41,214 nt of DNA from Halanaerobiaceae bacterium. Lineage in GTDB: Bacteria > Bacillota > Halanaerobiia > Halanaerobiales > Halarsenatibacteraceae. The translations under genes were made by a program, and so were the position numbers. Location: assembly GCA_007134885.1 (NCBI GenBank), contig SLJX01000106.1, positions 1 through 41,214 on the forward strand, written 5' to 3'. The notes below the pieces were generated by a model. The model was given only the letters and a program-made list of their open reading frames with translations. It was not told the origin of the DNA and did not search any database. Below are positions 2,419 through 40,800 of the stretch, piece after piece; within the stretch, counting starts at the first letter, position 1; every line of letters starts with the position of its first letter.

Positions 2419-2447
2419 TTGAAATATATCGTTTTTTGTAATATAAT
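2419..2447 (+). promoter_or_regulatory. Sigma70-type promoter for the ABC transporter operon
   Basis: TTGAAA (2419-2424), 17-bp spacer, TATAAT (2442-2447), about 50 bp upstream of the substrate-binding protein start. Confidence 0.65.
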
Positions 2448-2498
2448 TTAAATTGACGAGTTAACATAGCACTAAACTAAAAAACGGAGGGTGAGAAG

Positions 2499-4100
2499 AT
2501 GAGCAGAAAAATACTGATCTTATTGATCTTGCCGATGCTGGTGCTGGGTTTAAGCCTGACTGCTGGTGCTGAGCCGCTGCCAGAATTTGAGTTGATGACA
2601 ACCACCGAAGGTTATGACCCTATCAGGTATGAGGCTGCTTTTTTAATCGAGGAGAATTTTGCTGAACTGGGAATCCAAGTTGATGTTCAGCCGACTGAAT
2701 TCAGTACTTTAATTGATAATTTTTATAACGAGCAGGATTTTGATGTAGCAATAGTCGGTTGGTCCGGACGGGTAGAGCGTCTTGATCCCCAGCATTTCCT
2801 GGGAACCCTGCATTCCGGTCAGACCGACCCCGGCGGTAATAACCCGGGTGGTTATGCAAATGAACGGGTAGATGAATTATTTGCCCAGCAGGAAGTAGAA
2901 TTTGATATGGAACGGCGTCAGGAAATGGTATATGAGATTCAGGAAATTTCGGTTTCCGAACAGCCGGTCAATGTGCTCTTTTACCGGGATGAGGTCCTGG
3001 CCTTTAACCGCAATAAATTTGAAGGTTTCCAGCCCATGGCCGGAGAGGGAATTTATACCGAATGGCTGCCCTTTGATGTTACCCCTCTGACCGATGATAG
3101 AATGGTTACCATCGGAACCAGCCAGGAACCTGATAATATTAATCCACTGGATTCCACCACTGTTTGGGGCTGGAAATTCATGAGGCTTTATTATGATAAG
3201 CTGGTGCGCCTGACTCCCGATGTGGAGCCCGAGCCCTGGGCAGCAGAGTCCTTTGAGGCCATTGATGAGGATACCATTGAAGTAGTTCTCAGAGAAGGAA
3301 TGTATTTCCACGATGGTGAGCCTGTAACCGTAGAAGACGTAAAGTTTTCCTATGATTATTATATGGATCAGGATTTTGCCTATTTCCGCCCCTTCTATCA
3401 GCCTCTGGATTATGTAGAAATTGTAGATGACAGTACCTTACATTTTCATCTCGAAGTACCGGTATCCAACTTTATTACCGTGACAATGAGTCAGATTCCG
3501 ATTCTGCCCGAGCATCTCTGGGCTGATATTGAAGTTGCACAGGATCTGGCCCCTGATGAAATTCCGACAGTTGGCAGCGGCCCCATGAAATTTGAGACCT
3601 TTGATTCAGGTGAATATAAGAGCCTGTCAACTTTTGAAGATCACTTCGCTGCTGACGATATAGATATTGATGGAATTGACTATATCATCTATGCCGATGC
3701 CGAGGGAGTATTTACCGGTTTGATCACTGAAGAGGTCGACATGAATGCCTGGAGGCTGGAGCCCGGGCATATCGAACCGGCAGAGGCAGAAGACCATCTG
3801 GAAGTTGTCAGTGTGCCCGACCACGGTTATTACCACATGACCTATAATTTAAGAATTGAGCCCTTTGACGATGTCAATTTCCGCAGGGCGATTGCTCACG
3901 CCATCCCCAAGGATACCTTTGTTGATGTTCTGCTTGATGGTCTGGGAGAGCCGGGAACTTCGGTTATTTCTCCTGCCAATCCCTTCTGGCACAACCCTGA
4001 TGTAGAAAGATTTGAATATGATCTTGATAGGGCCCGGGAACTTCTGGAAGAAGCAGGATATTACATTGAAGACGGCGTCCTGCATTTTCCTGAAAATTAA
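2499..4100 (+). CDS. ABC transporter substrate-binding protein, SBP_bac_5 (peptide/nickel) family, apparently circularly permuted
   Basis: Signal peptide MSRKILILLILPMLVLGLSLTAGA, then canonical C-lobe sequence (aa ~28-190: IEENFAELGIQVDVQP...DVAIVGWSGRVERLDPQHFL...YANERVDELFAQQ...AFNRNKFEGF), then canonical N-terminal sequence (aa ~200-533: VTIGTSQEPDNINPLD...LREGMYFHDGEPVTVEDVKFSYDYY...FRRAIAHAI...YDLDRARELLEEAGYYIEDGVLHFPEN). Confidence 0.88.
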   Translation: MSRKILILLILPMLVLGLSLTAGAEPLPEFELMTTTEGYDPIRYEAAFLIEENFAELGIQVDVQPTEFSTLIDNFYNEQDFDVAIVGWSGRVERLDPQHFLGTLHSGQTDPGGNNPGGYANERVDELFAQQEVEFDMERRQEMVYEIQEISVSEQPVNVLFYRDEVLAFNRNKFEGFQPMAGEGIYTEWLPFDVTPLTDDRMVTIGTSQEPDNINPLDSTTVWGWKFMRLYYDKLVRLTPDVEPEPWAAESFEAIDEDTIEVVLREGMYFHDGEPVTVEDVKFSYDYYMDQDFAYFRPFYQPLDYVEIVDDSTLHFHLEVPVSNFITVTMSQIPILPEHLWADIEVAQDLAPDEIPTVGSGPMKFETFDSGEYKSLSTFEDHFAADDIDIDGIDYIIYADAEGVFTGLITEEVDMNAWRLEPGHIEPAEAEDHLEVVSVPDHGYYHMTYNLRIEPFDDVNFRRAIAHAIPKDTFVDVLLDGLGEPGTSVISPANPFWHNPDVERFEYDLDRARELLEEAGYYIEDGVLHFPEN

Positions 4101-4185
4101 GGAGTCGCGGATTCCCCTGAACTGTTTTAATGCAGTCGAGCTGTTTAACCGCAGCTTAAAAATATGCTGTTAATTTAAGCAGGAG

Positions 4186-4216
4186 AAAATGGGGGGATAA
4201 TTTCCCCCCATTTTTT
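4186..4216 (+). terminator. Intra-operon hairpin/terminator between SBP and permease genes
   Basis: AAAATGGGGGG-ATAATTT-CCCCCCATTTTTT. Confidence 0.75.
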
Positions 4217-4260
4217 CAATGCTATTTTTTATTATTAATTTGATTGCTGAGGTGAACTAG

Positions 4261-5250
4261 ATGGGCAAAGGTAAATTTATAACACGGCGTATTTTGCAGA
4301 TGCTTTTATCTTATTTTATTATACTAACCATGCTGTTTTTTGTTTTTAGACTGGCCCTTCCTGATCCAACTGCAGCCCTGGTTATGGAGGGTTTATCAGC
4401 TGAGGAACAGGCAATGGTAAGAGCCCGTTTCGGTCTTGATCAGCCTCTGTTGGGCCAATATTTTACCTATCTGACTAATTTTGTTCAGGGTGAACTGGGA
4501 CTTTCTTTCCATTACAGGGCCCCGGTTTTTCCCATCATACTGGATCGACTTTATAATACCCTGGCTTTAATGATACCTGCTATTATTGTATCCTATCTGC
4601 TGGGTCCTCTGTTGGGTGTTTTTCTTTCCTGGAAGAGAGGCAGCAGATCAGAATTTGCCGGTATTATAGGAGGGCTGGTGCTGCGTTCTGCCCCTCTTTT
4701 CTGGACCGGAATGATTTTTATTATGGTCTTTGGTATCTGGTTCAATATTTTTCCCACCAGCGGCATGAGAACCCTGCCCTATGAAGCAGCTTACTTTTTT
4801 GATAAAATTTTTACTCTAGATTATCTCTGGCATTTATTCCTTCCTATGATGACCATTGCCATCTATTACCTGGGACTTCCCATGCTGATAATGAGAAATA
4901 CCATGCTGGAAGTTATGGGAGAAGATTTTATTGAACTCTGTCAGGCCAAGGGGTTAAGTGAGCGCCGAATTATGTATCACCATGTGGCCCGCAACGCCCT
5001 GCTGCCGGTGGTAACCCAGGCAGCAATTACCATTGGTCTGGCGGTTGGAGGTCAGGTTGTGGTTGAAGTGGTCTTTTCCTGGCCGGGCCTGGGCCGAGAA
5101 ATTGTGCAGGCCGTAAGGACCAGTGATTTTCCCATGGCTCAGGGTTCTTTTATGATGATGTCGGGACTGGTTCTGATCATGAACTTCCTGGCTGATGTAA
5201 TCTACAGCTATCTCGATCCCCGGGTAGTTTATAAGGGGGGTAAAGAATAA
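4261..5250 (+). CDS. ABC transporter permease, DppB/OppB family
   Basis: 329 aa; RARFGLDQPLLGQYFTYLTNFVQGELGLSF and CQAKGLSERRIMYHHVARNALLPVVTQ (EAA loop) are typical of the family. Confidence 0.93.
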   Translation: MGKGKFITRRILQMLLSYFIILTMLFFVFRLALPDPTAALVMEGLSAEEQAMVRARFGLDQPLLGQYFTYLTNFVQGELGLSFHYRAPVFPIILDRLYNTLALMIPAIIVSYLLGPLLGVFLSWKRGSRSEFAGIIGGLVLRSAPLFWTGMIFIMVFGIWFNIFPTSGMRTLPYEAAYFFDKIFTLDYLWHLFLPMMTIAIYYLGLPMLIMRNTMLEVMGEDFIELCQAKGLSERRIMYHHVARNALLPVVTQAAITIGLAVGGQVVVEVVFSWPGLGREIVQAVRTSDFPMAQGSFMMMSGLVLIMNFLADVIYSYLDPRVVYKGGKE

Positions 5251-5251
5251 G

Positions 5252-7060
5252 ATGAATAATAAAAACGCCAGCCCTAAAAAGGGACTGAGAGAAAGATTAA
5301 AATATTTAAAACCTTTTTTGAATACAATCTTGGAACCGGTAAAAATCATCTTTAAGGATCCCCTGGGTATAGCTGGAGCTATTATTTTTTCAATTATTGT
5401 GCTAATAGCTATATTTGCTCCCCTGCTGGCAACCCATAATCCGGCTGAGATGAATGAAAGAATCGAGGGCAGTTTACTTGCCTTTTCTCCCGGCGGTCAA
5501 TGGCAGGATTATGAGATTATTGGCGATAAACCCATAAATGATCTGGTAATTAGAGGCCAGCAGATGATAGCAGCAGCAGAAAGTGGTTCTATCATGATGC
5601 TGCAAGAAGATGGCAGCTGGCAGGAGGTAAAAATTGATGCTGGAATAGATTTCTTTGCTGCTACAGTTGCAGAAGATATGATTCTGGCAGCTGGGGAGCA
5701 GGGGAGAATATACAGTTATCAGAATGGCAGCTGGCAGGAAAATCATCTGGAGCAGGAAATTGATATCTATGGCCTGACTGTTTCTCCCGGAGGTACTATT
5801 TATGCAGTGGGAGAAGAGGGTTCAGTTTTTAGCTGGCAGGAAGAAAGCTGGCAGCAGCTGAACACAGGATCCAGCCGTACACTTAAAGATATAAATTTTG
5901 TTGCTGCAGATGATGCTATAGTAATTGGAGAACGTGGAACCATCATTCATTATCGGCAGGGAGAATTTCTCGCTCCTCAGTTTAGAAGCTTCACTGATGA
6001 AACCTTCAGAGATCTTAATGGCCTGCATTATTTCAGTGAAGAGCTGGCCTTTGCTGTAGGTGAAAGAGGAACAATAATGGGTTATGACGGTACCGAGTGG
6101 TTTGCCATGAGAAGTGACTCTTCCCGGGAACTTAGAGGGGTTACTATAATCAGTTCTGAGGAAGCCTATGCTGTTGGTTATCGAGGCACAATCCAGCAGT
6201 ATGATGGAGAAAGCTGGCAGACCCATGAGAGAATAACCCGCAGGGGTTATCGGGGAATAACAACTGCTGGAGAAACCGGCTATATTTATGGAGTAGATCC
6301 CTATGTAAATGAACTGGCTCCTCCCTCCAGGGAGCACTTCTTTGGGACAACCCACCTGGGGAGGGATATCTGGAGTCAGGTTATCTACGGTTCCCGCACT
6401 GCTCTGATGGTCGGCATTATTGCAGCCCTGATGGTTAACCTGCTCGGTTTTACCGTGGGACTTATCTCCGGTTATTATCGAGGAGGAGTCGATAGTTTTC
6501 TAATGCGGGTGGTGGATATTATGTACGGGATGCCGCTGGAACCTTTTGCCATTGTGCTGGTGCTGATCTTTGGTCCGGGACTCTGGATAATAATTCTGGC
6601 TATTGGTCTCTTAACCTGGAGAACCAATGCCCGGGTAATTCGTTCTCAGGTGCTTTCTCTGGTGGAAAGACCCTTTATTAAAGCTGCCCGGATAGCAGGA
6701 GCCAGTAATATTAGAATCATGCTGGTTCATATCGCTCCCAATGTTCTGCCCCTGGCCTTTCTGCAGCTGGCAGTGGCCATGGGTTATGCGATTACTGCTG
6801 AGGCAACCTTAAGCTTTTTAGGTCTAGGGCCTCCAAGGGTATACAGCTGGGGGACCATTCTTCATGCAGCCCGCCTTTCCGGGGCCTGGAGGACAGCCTG
6901 GTGGTGGATTATTCCCCCGGGAATTTTTATTTCGGCCACCGTGGTTTCGGTTTTCCTGGTTTCCCGTGCTCTGGAAGTTCTGACCAATCCCCGCCTGAGA
7001 GGAGGCAATGAGAGTGCTCCTGAACCTAAAGAATCTCAAGACGTATTACCGCATGAATAG
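5252..7060 (+). CDS. ABC transporter permease, DppC/OppC family, with a large beta-propeller-like insertion in the TM1-TM2 extracytoplasmic loop
   Basis: TM1 ([34 protein letters not shown]), about 280 aa of GxxGxIxxYxxxSWQ repeats, then normal DppC ([29 protein letters not shown]...[27 protein letters not shown]). Confidence 0.92.
5465..6310 (+). repeat. Protein-level repeat region: about seven blades of a YCF48/WD40-like propeller inserted in the permease
   Basis: Repeated units: [120 protein letters not shown], plus a half-blade at each end ([15 protein letters not shown] / GYIYGVDP). Confidence 0.8.
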
Positions 7061-9296: not shown

Positions 9297-9371
9297 GTTA
9301 AGCCTGGATTAAATCGAGATATTTATGTTTAAAATATCAAACAATATCAAGAGATCTTTAAATTTAATCCG

Positions 9372-9402
9372 CCGGACAGCTTTATCAGCTGTCCGGTTTT
9401 TT
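9372..9402 (+). terminator. Rho-independent terminator ending the ABC operon
   Basis: CCGGACAGCT-TTATC-AGCTGTCCGG followed by TTTTTT. Confidence 0.85.
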
Positions 9403-9516: not shown

Positions 9517-10728
9517 GTGACTGACGAACAGGATCCCAGAATTGAAATCTACAGCCTGGAGTGGTGTCCCTACTGTCAGAAGGCCAAAAATTATTTTAAA
9601 AGCAAGGGATTCAGCTATCAGGAATATGATATCGGAAATAAAGATACCAAAGCTGAAATGGAGGAAAGAACCGGAGGAGCTAAAACCGTACCCCAGATTT
9701 TTATTAATGATAGGTTGATTGGCGGTTATGATGATCTGATAGACAAAAAACATACGGGAGAATTATATCAGATTGCCGGGTTTGCTGCTGAGGCCAAAGT
9801 ATATGAGAAACACTGGGATTTAATTATCATTGGCGCCGGGCCGGCGGGTTTAAATGCTGGACTCTATGGAGCCCGTAAGGGACTGGATGTTTTGATTGTG
9901 GCAAAGGCTCTGGGCGGCCAGATGCTGGAAACAGGAGAGATAGATAATTATCTGGGACTGCCCGGGGTGGAAGGAGCTGATATGATGGAGGCTTTCTGGC
10001 GTCATGTTAGTAATTATGATGTCATCATGGAACTGGGAGAAGAGATTACTGCTGTGGAAAAGACTGAAGAGGGTTTTCAGGTTCAGACGAAAAGTGGCGG
10101 GGAAATAAGTGGCAGTTCTCTGATTATAGCCAGCGGCACCACAAATCGAAAATTAGATGTTCCCGGAGAGAAGGAATTTAATGGCCTGGGGGTACATTAC
10201 TGTGCCACCTGTGACGGACACCTCTATGCCGGAGAGAAAGTGGCTGTTATTGGTGGTGGAAATTCTGGTCTGGAAGCAGCTCTGGATTTAGCCCGGCTGG
10301 ACTGTGAAATTTACCTGGTGGAGTTTCTTGATCATCTAACCGGGGATAAGGTGCTGGCGGACAGGGTAAGAGAAAATGACAGCATTGAAGTATATACTTC
10401 TTATGGGGTGAATAAAATAGACGGCCATAATAAAGTGGAAAGTCTGAGGCTGAAACATGCTGAAAATGGTGAGAAGCTGGACCTGGAGATTGCTGCTGTT
10501 TTTATAGAAATTGGTCTGATTCCTAATAATGACTTTGTGGAAGATATGATTGTGGTTAATGACCTGGGTGAAATAAAAATAAATAACAAAAATGAAACCA
10601 GTCTGGAAGGCATCTGGGCTGCCGGAGATGTTACCAGTATTATGGATAAACAGGTTATTGTCGCTGCTGCCGAGGGGGCTAAGGCCGCCCTAAGGGTAAA
10701 CGAATCTCTTGGCTTGTTATCCAGGTGA
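9517..10728 (+). CDS. Glutaredoxin domain fused to AhpF/TrxR-type FAD disulfide reductase
   Basis: N-terminal Grx (CPYC...KTVPQIFINDRLIGGYDDL); FAD domain (IIIGAGPAGLNAGLYGARKG); CATC redox motif; nucleotide-binding segment GGGNSGLEAALDLARLDCEIYLVEF resembles AhpF rather than NADPH-type TrxR. GTG start. Confidence 0.9.
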   Translation: MTDEQDPRIEIYSLEWCPYCQKAKNYFKSKGFSYQEYDIGNKDTKAEMEERTGGAKTVPQIFINDRLIGGYDDLIDKKHTGELYQIAGFAAEAKVYEKHWDLIIIGAGPAGLNAGLYGARKGLDVLIVAKALGGQMLETGEIDNYLGLPGVEGADMMEAFWRHVSNYDVIMELGEEITAVEKTEEGFQVQTKSGGEISGSSLIIASGTTNRKLDVPGEKEFNGLGVHYCATCDGHLYAGEKVAVIGGGNSGLEAALDLARLDCEIYLVEFLDHLTGDKVLADRVRENDSIEVYTSYGVNKIDGHNKVESLRLKHAENGEKLDLEIAAVFIEIGLIPNNDFVEDMIVVNDLGEIKINNKNETSLEGIWAAGDVTSIMDKQVIVAAAEGAKAALRVNESLGLLSR

Positions 10729-11874: not shown

Positions 11875-12513
11875 ATGGTAGATTTTGAAAAGTTAAGCAA
11901 CAGTGTAATTAAAGGTAATAGAGAAGAGGTAGTGGAATTAACTCAGGAGGCAGTTGATGAAGGGGTTAAGCCGAATGAGATTATCAATCAGGGTTTAATC
12001 AACGGCATGAATGTGGTGGGTAAAAGGTTTAAAGCCGGCGACATGTTTGTACCTGAGGTACTTATGGCAGCCAAAGCTATGAAGGGCGGCATGGAGATAG
12101 TTCAGCCCCTGCTGGTTGAAGGAGAAAGGGAAGAGGCCGGCAGGGTTTTACTGGGTACGGTAGCCGGAGACTTGCATGATATCGGCAAGAACCTGGTAGG
12201 TATGATGATGGAGAGCGGCGGACTGGAGGTTACCGACCTCGGCACCGATGTCGAGGCCGATGAATTTGTGGAGAACATCAGGGAGGTCAAGCCCCATGTG
12301 CTGGGCATGAGTGCTCTGCTGACCACCACCATGCTGGAGATGAAGGATGTTATAGAGGTTCTGGAGGAAGAGGGCTTGAGAGATGATGTTAAGGTAATCG
12401 TTGGAGGAGCCCCGGTTACCAAGGAGTTTGCTGATGAGATTGGAGCAGACGGCTGGGCGCCGGATGCTGCTTCAGCCAAGGATCTTGCCTTTGAACTTCT
12501 GGAAGATAAATAG
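11875..12513 (+). CDS. Corrinoid (B12-binding) methyl carrier protein, copy 1
   Basis: 212 aa; MtbC/MtgC-like helical cap plus DLHDIGKNLVGMMMESGG (DxHxxG) Co-binding motif. Confidence 0.95.
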   Translation: MVDFEKLSNSVIKGNREEVVELTQEAVDEGVKPNEIINQGLINGMNVVGKRFKAGDMFVPEVLMAAKAMKGGMEIVQPLLVEGEREEAGRVLLGTVAGDLHDIGKNLVGMMMESGGLEVTDLGTDVEADEFVENIREVKPHVLGMSALLTTTMLEMKDVIEVLEEEGLRDDVKVIVGGAPVTKEFADEIGADGWAPDAASAKDLAFELLEDK

Positions 12514-12534: not shown

Positions 12535-14031
12535 ATGAGCAAATATGTAAGGGCTCGTAATAATGTTAATGCTTCGGTCTATTTCCAGTCTCTAACCGAT
12601 GATGAATGCCGGGAGATTTATCTGGCAGCTCTCGAAGTTTTGGAGAGAACCGGTGTCAAACTTTTTTCTGAAGAAGCCCGCAGCATTTTAAAGGAAGCAG
12701 GTGGTTATGAAGAAGAGGACGGTCTTATTAAGATTCCCATTGGTTTATGCCAGTGGGCCGTGGATGCTGCTCCTTCCAAAATTGTTCTCTATGACCAGGA
12801 GGGAAATCCTGCCCTGGACCTTCACGACAATAATACTTATTATGGTCCGGGACCGACAAATACCTATCACCGGGACCCCTATACCGGGGAACGCCGCCGG
12901 CCGGTAGTTCAGGATAACCGAAATGCGGCTAAAGTATGTGACGCCCTGGAATATATTGATTATGTTATGGACCTGGGAACTCCCACCGATGTTACCGATA
13001 ATATTGCTGATATTCACGCCTTTAAGGCCATGATAGAAAATACTAATATGCCCATTGTTCACTGGGGCTTTGATATTGAGCAGTATGAAGATATGATTGA
13101 CATGGCAGCAGTTATTGCCGGTTCACTGGAAGAACTGCAGAAGAAACCCTTCTTTTTCCTCTATTCCGAACCAACTTCTCCCCTGCTGCATTCCCGGGAG
13201 GCCATTGAGAAGGTAATTCTGGCTGCCCGGAAAAAGATTCCTATTGTCTATACACCCTGTGTAATTTCTGGAGCTACCACACCTGCAACTCTGGCCGGCA
13301 CCCTGGTGCAGGGGATTGCCGAGAGTATTGCCGGAATTACCCTGGCTCAGTTGATCAGAAGAGGTCAACCCATAATAATGGGTGGGGTTTATGGCATCAT
13401 GGATATGAATACCACCATCTACAGTTATGGCAGTCCGGAATTTAACGCCCTGCAGGCGGGAGTTGCTCAGGTTTCAACCCACATGGGTATCCCGGTTTTT
13501 GGGACAGCTGGCTGTACTGACTCCCATACCATCGATGAACAGGCTGCCGCTGAGGCCGCCATGAGCATCCTGACAGCCGCTCAATCAGGAGCCAACCTGG
13601 TTCATGACTGCGGTTATATCAGTTCCGGTCAGTGCGGTTCCCTGGAGCAACTGGTAATGGATGACGAGATTATCGGTATGGTAAAAAGGATTATGCGAGG
13701 AATTGAAGTAACAGATGAAACCCTGGCAGTAAATGTGGTTAAAGAGGTGGGTCCCGGAGGTCACTTCCTAGGTGAAGATCATACCATGGAGCATTTCAAG
13801 GAACAGACCTGGTTCCCCACTCTGATGAACAGAATGCGCCATGATGGCTGGAAAACCAAGGCTGATGGTTCTAGAATGGCCGATAGAATAAAAGAAAAAC
13901 TCCATGATATTTTAGAAAATCACGAAACTCCTAAACTGCCAGAAGATAAGCAGCAGGCAATAGATGAGATTATGGAACAGGCAGAATCCCGGGAAGCTGA
14001 AAGAGACAAGAAAAAGAAGGAGGACAAATAA
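12535..14031 (+). CDS. MttB-family methyltransferase, non-pyrrolysine (glycine-betaine-type or related)
   Basis: 498 aa, no in-frame TAG; MttB-family motifs (YGPGPTNTYHRDPYTGERR; PFFFLYSEPTSPLLHS; VFGTAGCTDSHTIDEQAAAEAAMSIL). Confidence 0.92.
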   Translation: MSKYVRARNNVNASVYFQSLTDDECREIYLAALEVLERTGVKLFSEEARSILKEAGGYEEEDGLIKIPIGLCQWAVDAAPSKIVLYDQEGNPALDLHDNNTYYGPGPTNTYHRDPYTGERRRPVVQDNRNAAKVCDALEYIDYVMDLGTPTDVTDNIADIHAFKAMIENTNMPIVHWGFDIEQYEDMIDMAAVIAGSLEELQKKPFFFLYSEPTSPLLHSREAIEKVILAARKKIPIVYTPCVISGATTPATLAGTLVQGIAESIAGITLAQLIRRGQPIIMGGVYGIMDMNTTIYSYGSPEFNALQAGVAQVSTHMGIPVFGTAGCTDSHTIDEQAAAEAAMSILTAAQSGANLVHDCGYISSGQCGSLEQLVMDDEIIGMVKRIMRGIEVTDETLAVNVVKEVGPGGHFLGEDHTMEHFKEQTWFPTLMNRMRHDGWKTKADGSRMADRIKEKLHDILENHETPKLPEDKQQAIDEIMEQAESREAERDKKKKEDK

Positions 14032-14032
14032 T

Positions 14033-14671
14033 ATGGTAGATTTTGAAAAGTTAAGCAACAGTGTAATTAAAGGTAATAGAGAAGAGGTAGTGGAATTAAC
14101 TCAGGAGGCAGTTGATGAGGGAGTTAAGCCGAATGAGATTATCAATCAGGGTTTAATCAACGGCATGAATGTGGTGGGTAAAAGGTTTAAAGCCGGAGAT
14201 ATGTTTGTACCTGAGGTGCTTATGGCAGCCAAGGCCATGAAAGGCGGCATGGAAATAGTTCAGCCCCTGCTGGTTGAAGGAGAAAGGGAAGAAGCCGGCA
14301 GAGTGGTACTGGGCACGGTAGCCGGAGATCTGCATGATATTGGCAAGAACCTGGTAGGCATGATGATGGAAAGCGGCGGATTGGAGGTTACCGACCTCGG
14401 TACCGACGTAGAAGCAGATGAATTTGTGGAGAGCATCAGGGAGTTTAAGCCCCATGTGCTGGGCATGAGCGCTCTACTGACCACCACCATGCTGGAGATG
14501 AAGGATGTTATAGAGGTTCTGGAGGAAGAGGGCTTGAGAGATGATGTTAAGGTAATAGTAGGAGGAGCCCCGGTTACCAAGGAGTTTGCCGATGAGATTG
14601 GAGCAGACGGCTGGGCGCCGGATGCTGCTTCAGCCAAGGACCTTGTCTTTGAACTTCTGGAAGATAAATAG
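14033..14671 (+). CDS. Corrinoid (B12-binding) methyl carrier protein, copy 2
   Basis: 212 aa with 4 substitutions relative to copy 1. ATG at 14033; the ORF-track extension to 13964 overlaps the upstream gene and is not used. Confidence 0.95.
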   Translation: MVDFEKLSNSVIKGNREEVVELTQEAVDEGVKPNEIINQGLINGMNVVGKRFKAGDMFVPEVLMAAKAMKGGMEIVQPLLVEGEREEAGRVVLGTVAGDLHDIGKNLVGMMMESGGLEVTDLGTDVEADEFVESIREFKPHVLGMSALLTTTMLEMKDVIEVLEEEGLRDDVKVIVGGAPVTKEFADEIGADGWAPDAASAKDLVFELLEDK

Positions 14672-37376: not shown

Positions 37377-38252
37377 ATGCGCACTAATCAGGATCGGGTT
37401 GTTATGCAGTCTGTTCAGGGCAATATTTCTCATCCCAGAGCCGGTCGACTTCCCTATCGTCTGGATCGCGAAGGGCGGGGTCATAATCTTCCCGGAACCG
37501 GGGGTATTACCTATAATGTCAGGGTAGGGGATCCGGCAATGGGCTGGGCAGGCGATCATATTGAGCCTGCGGTCAGCATGAAGATTACCAAAGATTCCAG
37601 GGATAATGAGAATTATGGACTGGGTCTGCTGGCCTGCATAGGTAATCAGGCCAGAGTTGTCAGTGGTGAAGCTGAAGGAGCAAGAGGAGTGGTAACAGGA
37701 CTGCATGGCGGAATTAATCATGTGCTGGTAGATTTTGCACCCGAAGATATGGAGAAGATGAAGGTGGGAGACAGCATCCTGGTTAAGGCTCAAGGTCAGG
37801 GTCTCAGGCTGGAAGATTATCCCGAGGTCAGGGTATTTAATATCGATCCTGAACTTTTGATCCAGCTCGGAATTGAGGAATCCAGCCAGCAAGACAAGCT
37901 AAAGGTTCCAGTGGCTGCTGTGGTTCCCGGGCATCTCATGGGTTCGGGTATCGGTTCCTCTTCAGCGGCTATGGGTGACTATGATATAACCACCGGTGAC
38001 AAGGCCGAGCTGGAAAAACATAATTTAAATGATCTCAGACTGGGAGATCTGGTTTATCTGGCGGACTGTGATAATACCTACGGCCGGGAATATATTACCG
38101 GGGCAGGCAGTATTGGAGTGGTGGCTCATTCTGACTGCATTATAATGGGCCATGGTCCCGGAGTAACCACTATTATGACCTCCAAACAGGATATTATCCA
38201 GCCGAAAATTACCCGGGATGCCAATATTGCCGATTATTTCGAGATTAACTGA
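37377..38252 (+). CDS. DUF4438-family protein
   Basis: 291 aa; VQGNISHPRAGRLPYRLDREGRGHNLPGTGGITYNVRVGDPAMGWAGDHIEPAVSM; VPGHLMGSGIGSSSAAMGDYDI. Confidence 0.82.
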   Translation: MRTNQDRVVMQSVQGNISHPRAGRLPYRLDREGRGHNLPGTGGITYNVRVGDPAMGWAGDHIEPAVSMKITKDSRDNENYGLGLLACIGNQARVVSGEAEGARGVVTGLHGGINHVLVDFAPEDMEKMKVGDSILVKAQGQGLRLEDYPEVRVFNIDPELLIQLGIEESSQQDKLKVPVAAVVPGHLMGSGIGSSSAAMGDYDITTGDKAELEKHNLNDLRLGDLVYLADCDNTYGREYITGAGSIGVVAHSDCIIMGHGPGVTTIMTSKQDIIQPKITRDANIADYFEIN

Positions 38253-38346: not shown

Positions 38347-40800
38347 ATGGGGATGATATTAGTGAACAGTTCAGAAATTCAGCCGGAAGCAGAAGAAGGT
38401 TTTGACCAGAATTTTTCGGGAAAATCAATGATATCAAATTTTCTTTTTCCGGAAAAAGTTAAAGCAGTCGAGGAAATTTCCGGCGGGTTAAGAGTAGATT
38501 TTGCAAAGCATCGGCTGGAGCTGCTTTGGTATCGGCCTGGTGTGGTCAGGGTGATTTTTGCTGATAACAGTAATTTTTCCAGAAAGACGACCCCGGCAGT
38601 CTACCGGAAATTTGCCCCGGAAAAGCTGGCAGAAAAAACTGATTATCAGGAGGAAGCCAACGTGGTGCTGCTTTCCGGACCTGACTGCAGTGTCAGGGTG
38701 GAGCTGGCTCCCTTTTCGTTAAACTTTCTTGATGGTGAGGGGGAGATTATTCAGGCTGATGTTCCCGGCAGTTCAGCGGGCTGGTGGCGCAATCAGGTCT
38801 GCTGTCAGAAAAAGTTAAGACCGGAGGAGAGAATTTATGGTTTGGGCGAGAAGACCGGTTTTCTCGATAAGAGAGGACGAAACTATACCATGTGGAATAC
38901 CGATGCCTATGAACCTCATGTGCCCTCCACCGACCCGCTCTACATTTCCATTCCCTTTTATCTGGGTTTTATTCCTGGTAAGAGTTATGGAGTTTATTTT
39001 GATAACAGCTACCGTTCTCATTTTGATATCGGTCACAGCTCTTCCCGACAGCTTTGGTATCGGGCTGAAGGAGGCAGCCTGGATTATTTCTGGCTGGCCG
39101 GACCGGAACTTAAGGATGTGATTAAATCCTACACCTGGCTTACCGGCAGAACTCCCCTGCCGCCGCTCTGGTCTCTGGGCTATCACCAATCCCGTTACAG
39201 TTATTATCCTCAGGAAAAGGTTCTGGAACTGGCCGATAAGTTTCGTGAAAATAAAATCCCCTGTGATGCCATTCACCTGGATATACATTATATGGATGGC
39301 TGCCGGGTTTTTACCTGGGACCAGGACCGTTTTCCCCGGCCTGAAAAGCTGGCTGAAAAGCTTGAGGAAAAGGGTATCAAGCCGGTAACCATTATAGATC
39401 CGGGGGTGAAGATTGACCCGGAATATCAGGTTTATCGCAGCGGACAGCAGCAGGACTATTTCTGCCGTTATCTTGACGGCCGTCTCTGCCGGGAGGAGGT
39501 CTGGCCGGGAGAAACAGCCTTCCCCGATTTTACCAGAGAGGAGGTACGACGCTGGTGGAAGAGCCTGCATAAGGATTTTCTCAATAGCGGTATCCGGGGT
39601 TTCTGGAATGATATGAATGAACCGGCAGCCTTCAATGACAGCATGACGCTGGATGAAGAGGTGGAACATCTGAATGATGGTGATCCCGGTTCCCATCTGA
39701 GATTTCACAATCTCTATGCTCTGGAGGAAGCCCGGGCCACCAGCTCGGCTATCAAAGAGTATCAGCGGGAACGTCCCTTTGTCCTGACCCGGGCCGGCTT
39801 TGCAGGCATTCAAAGATATGCTGCTGCCTGGACCGGTGATAATCGCAGCTTCTGGAGTGATCTTGAGCTGGTAATGCCGATGCTGGCCAATCTGGGCATG
39901 AGTGGCCTCGGCTTTAGCGGAGCCGATGTGGGAGGTTTTACCGGGGATGCCAGCGGTGAGCTTTTAACCCGCTGGATCCAGCTGGGGGCCTTTATGCCAT
40001 TTTTCCGCAATCATACCTCTCTCAATACCAGAAATCAGGAGCCCTGGGCCTTCGGGGAGCCCTATACTTCAATAATCAAGCGCTATATAAGGCTGCGCTA
40101 TCAGCTGCTCCCCGAAATTTATAACCTCTTTTATCAGCAGGCTGAGAATGGTCTCCCTCTCTGGCGGCCGCTGGTGCTTAATTATCCCGGAGACCCTGAA
40201 ACCCACAATCTTTCTGATCAGGTTATGATTGGAGACTCCCTGCTGCTGGCGCCGGTTGTCAGAGCGGACAGCCGGGAGAGAAGAGTTTACCTGCCGGGTT
40301 CAGGCTGGTATGATTTCTGGAGTGGCAAGTACTACCAGGGAGCTGAGAGCTACTTGATTGCAGCTCCCCTGGAGAAAATACCGATCTTTGTGTCAGAAAA
40401 TTCCCTGCTGCTAACTACCGAGTCAGACAAACTCCATACCGGAAGGGGTTTTTCCGATCTGGTCTTAAATATCTATCCCGGTCGGAAGCAGGTAGAGACT
40501 TCGGGCAATATCTACGAAGATGATGGCATCAGCTTTGATTATCAGGAGGGAAAGTATAATCTGATCAACTATCAGCTGGAATCTAGCGAGAACAACCTGA
40601 AACTGGTACTGAAAACCGAGAAGCAAAACTATTCCGGTGGTATTCAGGATTATACTATCAGACTGGCCGGGTTGGAAGCTTCCCCCCGGGCAGTTGAATT
40701 AAATGGTAAGGAAATTCAGGATAAATTTAATTACCAGGCCGGAGAACTGGAGCTGGTACTTACAGAACTGGATCAGATTAAACTGGTGGTTAAGTATTAA
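38347..40800 (+). CDS. Glycoside hydrolase family 31 alpha-glucosidase-type enzyme
   Basis: YGLGEKTGFLDKRGRNYTMWNTDAY; GFWNDMNEPAAF catalytic motif; WTGDNRSFWSDLELVMPMLANLGMSGLGFSGADVGGF. Confidence 0.95.
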   Translation: MGMILVNSSEIQPEAEEGFDQNFSGKSMISNFLFPEKVKAVEEISGGLRVDFAKHRLELLWYRPGVVRVIFADNSNFSRKTTPAVYRKFAPEKLAEKTDYQEEANVVLLSGPDCSVRVELAPFSLNFLDGEGEIIQADVPGSSAGWWRNQVCCQKKLRPEERIYGLGEKTGFLDKRGRNYTMWNTDAYEPHVPSTDPLYISIPFYLGFIPGKSYGVYFDNSYRSHFDIGHSSSRQLWYRAEGGSLDYFWLAGPELKDVIKSYTWLTGRTPLPPLWSLGYHQSRYSYYPQEKVLELADKFRENKIPCDAIHLDIHYMDGCRVFTWDQDRFPRPEKLAEKLEEKGIKPVTIIDPGVKIDPEYQVYRSGQQQDYFCRYLDGRLCREEVWPGETAFPDFTREEVRRWWKSLHKDFLNSGIRGFWNDMNEPAAFNDSMTLDEEVEHLNDGDPGSHLRFHNLYALEEARATSSAIKEYQRERPFVLTRAGFAGIQRYAAAWTGDNRSFWSDLELVMPMLANLGMSGLGFSGADVGGFTGDASGELLTRWIQLGAFMPFFRNHTSLNTRNQEPWAFGEPYTSIIKRYIRLRYQLLPEIYNLFYQQAENGLPLWRPLVLNYPGDPETHNLSDQVMIGDSLLLAPVVRADSRERRVYLPGSGWYDFWSGKYYQGAESYLIAAPLEKIPIFVSENSLLLTTESDKLHTGRGFSDLVLNIYPGRKQVETSGNIYEDDGISFDYQEGKYNLINYQLESSENNLKLVLKTEKQNYSGGIQDYTIRLAGLEASPRAVELNGKEIQDKFNYQAGELELVLTELDQIKLVVKY

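Follow-up and report, generated by a model that had tools for sequence, protein, structure and literature searches.

Few groups of binding proteins are as numerous as the family-5 substrate-binding proteins (SBPs). In the Escherichia coli importer DppABCDF (8z1y), R355 of DppA (R383 in the preprotein) binds the carboxylate of the dipeptide and D408 (D436 in the preprotein) its amino group, and the engineered double change R383D+D436R abolished dipeptide binding (PMC12136057). The termini of the chain adjoin in canonical family-5 structures (PMC10924461), close enough together to be joined by a short linker. A natural circular permutation has been described for TpMglB-2 (Tp0684) of Treponema pallidum, a “Type Ic / Cluster Bc” SBP, for which an adaptation to membrane tethering was suggested and the possibility of a chimera raised (PMC4990184). 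It was the sole natural permuted ABC SBP found in the open-access papers covered, and none was found there for family 5. The initial annotation of the DNA described here knew of no described example, which agrees with this search for family 5 but does not hold for SBPs in general.

We analyzed a 41,214-nucleotide contig of a Halanaerobiaceae bacterium (the window), which encodes an apparently undescribed, permuted form of family-5 SBP. The open reading frame and its length had been given exactly in the initial annotation; the features of the locus are listed in Table 1. The chain runs from a signal peptide through the canonical C-terminal segment (aa ~26-186, rather than ~28-190 as first proposed) and a short linker to the canonical N-terminal part (aa ~202-533, previously taken to start at ~203). 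With a score of 228.7 bits (protein E-value 1.6e-67), the match to Pfam SBP_bac_5 far exceeded the cut-off of 32.4, and aa 243-526 corresponded to positions 1-283 of the model. Bacillus subtilis AppA (1xoc) was matched in two stretches, aa 204-524 to residues 25-347 (i-Evalue 1.1e-30) and aa 35-179 to residues 365-504 (1.4e-7), the order of which is reversed compared to AppA. When aligned with E. coli proteins, the chain corresponds in turn to DppA 344 onward, the linker, and DppA 2-343. The breakpoint thus falls between mature residues 343 and 344 of DppA (~356/359 of OppA), inside lobe 2, and not where the C-lobe normally begins, as had been assumed. It coincides with a region of length variation among canonical proteins, which suggests that the cut was made at an exposed turn. 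No collinear alignment with SBP_bac_5 was obtained with the Pfam, AppA or PDB matches, and the reversed matches to all three agree with the natural permutation initially proposed. The permuted order was not seen in any of the 60 best PDB chains in a family profile search, in which every best stretch started at a profile position of at least 190.

Table 1. Features of the permuted SBP gene and its operon in the window.
Feature	Position	Strand	Basis
Sigma-70-like promoter match TTGAAA-17-TATAAT, 5' of SBP gene	2419..2447	+	11/12 matches; consensus match only
Shine-Dalgarno GGAGG	2486..2490	+	Sequence
Circularly permuted family-5 SBP, 533 aa	2499..4100	+	ORF, Pfam and PDB-sequence matches
Predicted signal peptide, aa 1-24 (...GLSLTAGA/EPLPEF), without lipobox	2499..2570	+	Sequence inspection
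Canonical C-terminal segment, aa 26-186 (DppA ~344 onward)	2574..3056	+	Alignments to AppA and E. coli proteins
Codon of E37, at DppA R355 position (R383 in preprotein)	2607..2609	+	Alignment; PMC12136057
Codon of R91, at DppA D408 position (D436 in preprotein) / OppA D419	2769..2771	+	Alignment; PMC12136057
Linker, former C-terminus to former N-terminus, aa 187-201	3057..3101	+	Family alignment; similar length across family
Canonical N-terminal part, aa 202-533 (DppA 2-343), ending RARELLEEAGYYIEDGVLHFPEN	3102..4097	+	Pfam, AppA and DppA alignments
Strong terminator-like hairpin with T-run, between SBP and permease genes	4183..4217	+	z -6.1
DppB/OppB-type permease (PermB)	4261..5250	+	Domain profile matches
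DppC/OppC-type permease (PermC) with large insert, probably extracytoplasmic	5252..7060	+	Profile matches, model
Predicted seven-bladed beta-propeller insert, PermC aa 73-348 (276 residues), between TM1 and core	5468..6295	+	pLDDT mostly 80-95
Two fused Dpp/Opp-type ATPase domains, 762 aa	7008..9296	+	Profile matches; true start possibly slightly downstream of 7008
Terminator-like hairpin past operon	9371..9397	+	Hairpin scan

The whole protein belongs by sequence to family 5 (SBP_bac_5, Cluster C), and it has the secretion signal and the Dpp/Opp-type permease/ATPase operon expected of that family; no NCBIfam model reached its cut-off. The chain order is not the canonical one, and the protein is therefore regarded as a permuted variant rather than a standard member. 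It is very likely that the gene encodes a circularly permuted SBP of a Dpp/Opp-type importer, permutation and binding-protein role taken together. An AlphaFold model, proposed earlier as a check, had a mean pLDDT of only 57 (16 similar sequences), and all 50 of the top PDB matches listed for it were Cluster C SBPs, with TM only ~0.3. With a model this poor, the case for a retained fold rests on sequence, from which we infer that the two-lobed fold, the flytrap action and the delivery to the DppB/DppC permease are kept.

Nearly every locus with sufficient flanking sequence encodes two permeases and two ATPases along with the permuted SBP (SBP-B-C-D-F). Hairpins similar to the one at 4183-4217 are visible at the SBP-permease gap in relatives, and internal terminators of this kind are known to make SBP transcripts more abundant than those of the translocator in Clostridia (PMC9045158). 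By analogy, the hairpin in the window may act in a terminator-like manner and favor the SBP transcript. The insert of PermC matched the seven-bladed 7bif by fold (TMt 0.77), and the PermC core matched DppC-type chains. Located between TM1 and the core, the propeller is probably extracytoplasmic according to the model. The propeller and the fused ATPases were found in every complete operon seen of the window’s subclade, including Nitratireductor and the more distant locus L097, and none of the permuted operons examined outside this subclade had the propeller. In those operons, each ATPase mostly has a gene of its own; two haloarchaea have long single ATPase genes. The propeller-bearing PermC of Nitratireductor sp. 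OM-1 is located at L073:11613-13286. No description of a DppC-type permease with such a propeller was found in a literature search. PermB was inspected for a covarying scoop-loop: the E41-R42 pair of DppB is not kept in the permuted operons, but it is also missing from canonical relatives, so its absence says little.

Several other genes were observed in the window. Just downstream of the transporter operon, a glutaredoxin domain is fused to a thioredoxin-reductase/AhpF-like protein (9517-10728). A cluster at ~11.9-36 kb, which looks like one for methylated-amine demethylation, encodes three MttB-family proteins, a pterin-binding methyltransferase, a hydantoinase-A-like protein, Hdr/ferredoxin-like proteins and a formate-THF ligase; nearly identical corrinoid-protein genes (11875-12513 and 13964-14671) are placed on either side of an MttB-family methyltransferase gene. 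Genes for a DUF4438 protein (37377-38252) and a GH31-family glycosidase (38347-40800) are found near this cluster.

The clamping pair of DppA, R355/D408, is replaced by E37/R91 in the window protein, although the alignment of E37 with R355 adjoins a two-residue gap. Both residues are conserved in the window’s subclade, and Arg is common at the R91 position in the rest of the family. Such a charge reversal makes a DppA-like dipeptide an unlikely ligand. The permutation could nevertheless be neutral and the system an ordinary dipeptide/oligopeptide transporter with an unchanged ligand class, a reading that is possible but falls short of an even chance. Peptidases of the M20, M28, M81 or TldD type are encoded near permuted operons, and canonical family-5 proteins also vary at both ligand positions; this has to be weighed against the reversal of both charges throughout the subclade and the lost dipeptide binding of the similarly altered DppA. 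Other neighbors of permuted operons encode hydantoinase/oxoprolinase, Asp/Glu/hydantoin racemase, amidohydrolase, creatininase, D-aminoacylase and dipeptide epimerase. We tentatively suggest, with no greater assurance than for an unchanged ligand class, that the ligand may lack a free amino group or have an altered charge pattern and so differ from an ordinary zwitterionic dipeptide. Candidates are perhaps amino-blocked or amide compounds, such as a hydantoin or an N-carbamoyl or N-acyl amino acid.

The signal peptide had been placed at the new N-terminus before, and inspection of the sequence likewise predicts it there. With the break inside lobe 2, the chain ends shift from lobe 1 to lobe 2, as does the lipid anchor in ~19 members. 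Membrane tethering, as suggested for TpMglB-2, might accordingly have been what the permuted form was an adaptation to. A lipobox-like motif was observed in 19 of the 47 aligned sequences, haloarchaeal members included, but the other 28, among them the window protein, are without one, implying that the permuted form can be kept without tethering. We consider this origin unlikely.

To place the permuted proteins among canonical ones, an IQ-TREE phylogeny of 61 proteins was constructed, for which permuted sequences were re-ordered in silico and canonical proteins were sampled by means of the same query. All permuted proteins fell into one clade (UFBoot 92) nested within canonical family 5, and the canonical outsiders closest to it were L055 (Halanaerobiales) and L080 (Cytobacillus) (support 97). 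The moved segment could in principle derive from a different SBP gene, giving a chimera that merely resembles a circular permutation: many canonical proteins resemble the C segment less closely than they do the main segment, and trees of such short segments are weak, with supports for the permuted clade of 0.36 and 0.39 for either segment alone and with L080, a canonical protein, inside the permuted clade in the C-segment tree. However, both segments independently adjoined L055 and L080 (0.953 for the main and 0.815 for the C segment), which favors a true permutation of one gene and makes a chimera improbable. A repeated origin of the same permutation is marginally less probable still. The great diversity of the family (down to ~25% identity, across bacteria and archaea) and the weakly supported clade in segment-only trees would fit it, but the breakpoint is the same and the linker similar in all 46 collected proteins, and the clade is paralleled by that of the permeases. 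PermB sequences of permuted operons grouped together (UFBoot 75), and their sister pair, with support 100, was formed by the permeases of the canonical operons L080 and L110, which correspond to the SBP outsiders. The matching trees suggest joint inheritance of SBP and permease. One ancient permutation is thus most likely, with moderate clade support. A duplication/truncation route, as initially envisaged, is plausible, but none of the fetched ORFs represented a tandem or partially duplicated intermediate.

The search for orthologs with the same order, suggested at the outset, yielded ~46 distinct proteins sharing the breakpoint, from Halanaerobiales and relatives, Nitriliruptoria-labelled MAGs, alphaproteobacteria and haloarchaea. 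They begin at the same point, end alike (AGY.W...G.L.YPE, or a variant that is slightly shorter or longer) and have similar linkers; one of them, L072, is truncated at the end of its contig. Members with 63-97% identity occur in Halanaerobiales, Limnochordia-labelled and Nitriliruptoria-labelled genomes, and the permuted SBP is present in the isolate Halanaerobium polyolivorans Z-7514 and in a single-contig 2.6 Mb genome. Distant members (25-55% identity) aligned as one continuous match in the permuted order and are encoded on plasmids, closed ones among them, of Nitratireductor, Roseomonas, Microvirga, Ketogulonicigenium, Neorhizobium and Maritalea and of many haloarchaea. The gene is under strong purifying selection and is no pseudogene (dN/dS 0.035-0.04 against the nearest two relatives, at 94-97% identity). 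Although the window is one contig of a 207-contig draft genome, an artefact of assembly or binning in which parts of two SBP genes were fused, a join artefact being one of the doubts raised in the initial annotation, is refuted by these independent records and by the purifying selection.

By our reading, 19 of the 59 genomes of the window’s class have a permuted SBP. It is rare in the wider phylum sample (7/398, two of the seven being from the window’s class) and in the phylum of a Nitriliruptoria-labelled genome (2/296). No relatives were found in the viral collection and no convincing permuted member in phage records, where the only match covering at least 80% was to Fusobacterium phage FNU4, in two pieces. 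Cytobacillus plasmid matches seemed full-length when joined and were rejected for their canonical chain order. A 924-aa Nitriliruptoria frame was likewise rejected as a fusion, its N-terminal part resembling a spurious GC-rich frame before the lipobox. In Neorhizobium galegae pNgVX (L081:8736-12394), a single annotated frame takes in all of DppC together with a portion of DppB, and the SBP upstream of it is split into two annotated pieces, which points to frameshifts or to an artefact of annotation. Permuted members are annotated just as “ABC transporter substrate-binding protein”, leaving the rearrangement invisible.

We propose that the SBP chain of an ancient ancestor was circularly permuted once. 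A short linker would have connected the old N- and C-termini, which lie near each other on domain I of lobe 1, and a length-variable loop of lobe 2 would have been opened to give the new ends, the secretion signal being placed ahead of the new N-terminus. Signal peptide and, where present, lipid anchor would then be attached to lobe 2. Later, in the window’s subclade, the partner permease would have gained the beta-propeller and the two ATPases would have fused. The full scenario, a cross-domain “Cluster Cc” clade with one ancient permutation, ends and anchor moved to lobe 2, a co-inherited permease, a changed ligand class and a propeller-permease branch possibly acting with the SBP, seems to us evenly balanced between right and wrong. 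A single old permutation with such wide inheritance serves as a natural experiment on the importance of lobe connection and anchor position for closure of the flytrap and docking on the permease, and it indicates ready-made permissive termini for biosensor design.

Compared to the canonical family-5 (Cluster C) proteins AppA, DppA, OppA and GsiB, the window protein is homologous over both segments, has the same overall length and belongs to a DppBCDF-type operon, but its chain order is permuted and its ends lie in lobe 2. The gene set is that of E. coli DppABCDF, in which, unlike in the window’s subclade, DppC is without a propeller, DppD and DppF are separate chains and DppA is unpermuted (PMC12136057). 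The window SBP resembles TpMglB-2 in being a natural permuted ABC binding protein, probably with two lobes like TpMglB-2. TpMglB-2 differs in having a Cluster B sugar-binding fold, where sequence searches match the window protein to Cluster C families, and in that its permutation adds a fourth lobe crossing (PMC4990184). The moved part of TpMglB-2 has little sequence similarity to its canonical counterpart; both parts of the window protein, by contrast, are recognizable and have the same relatives.
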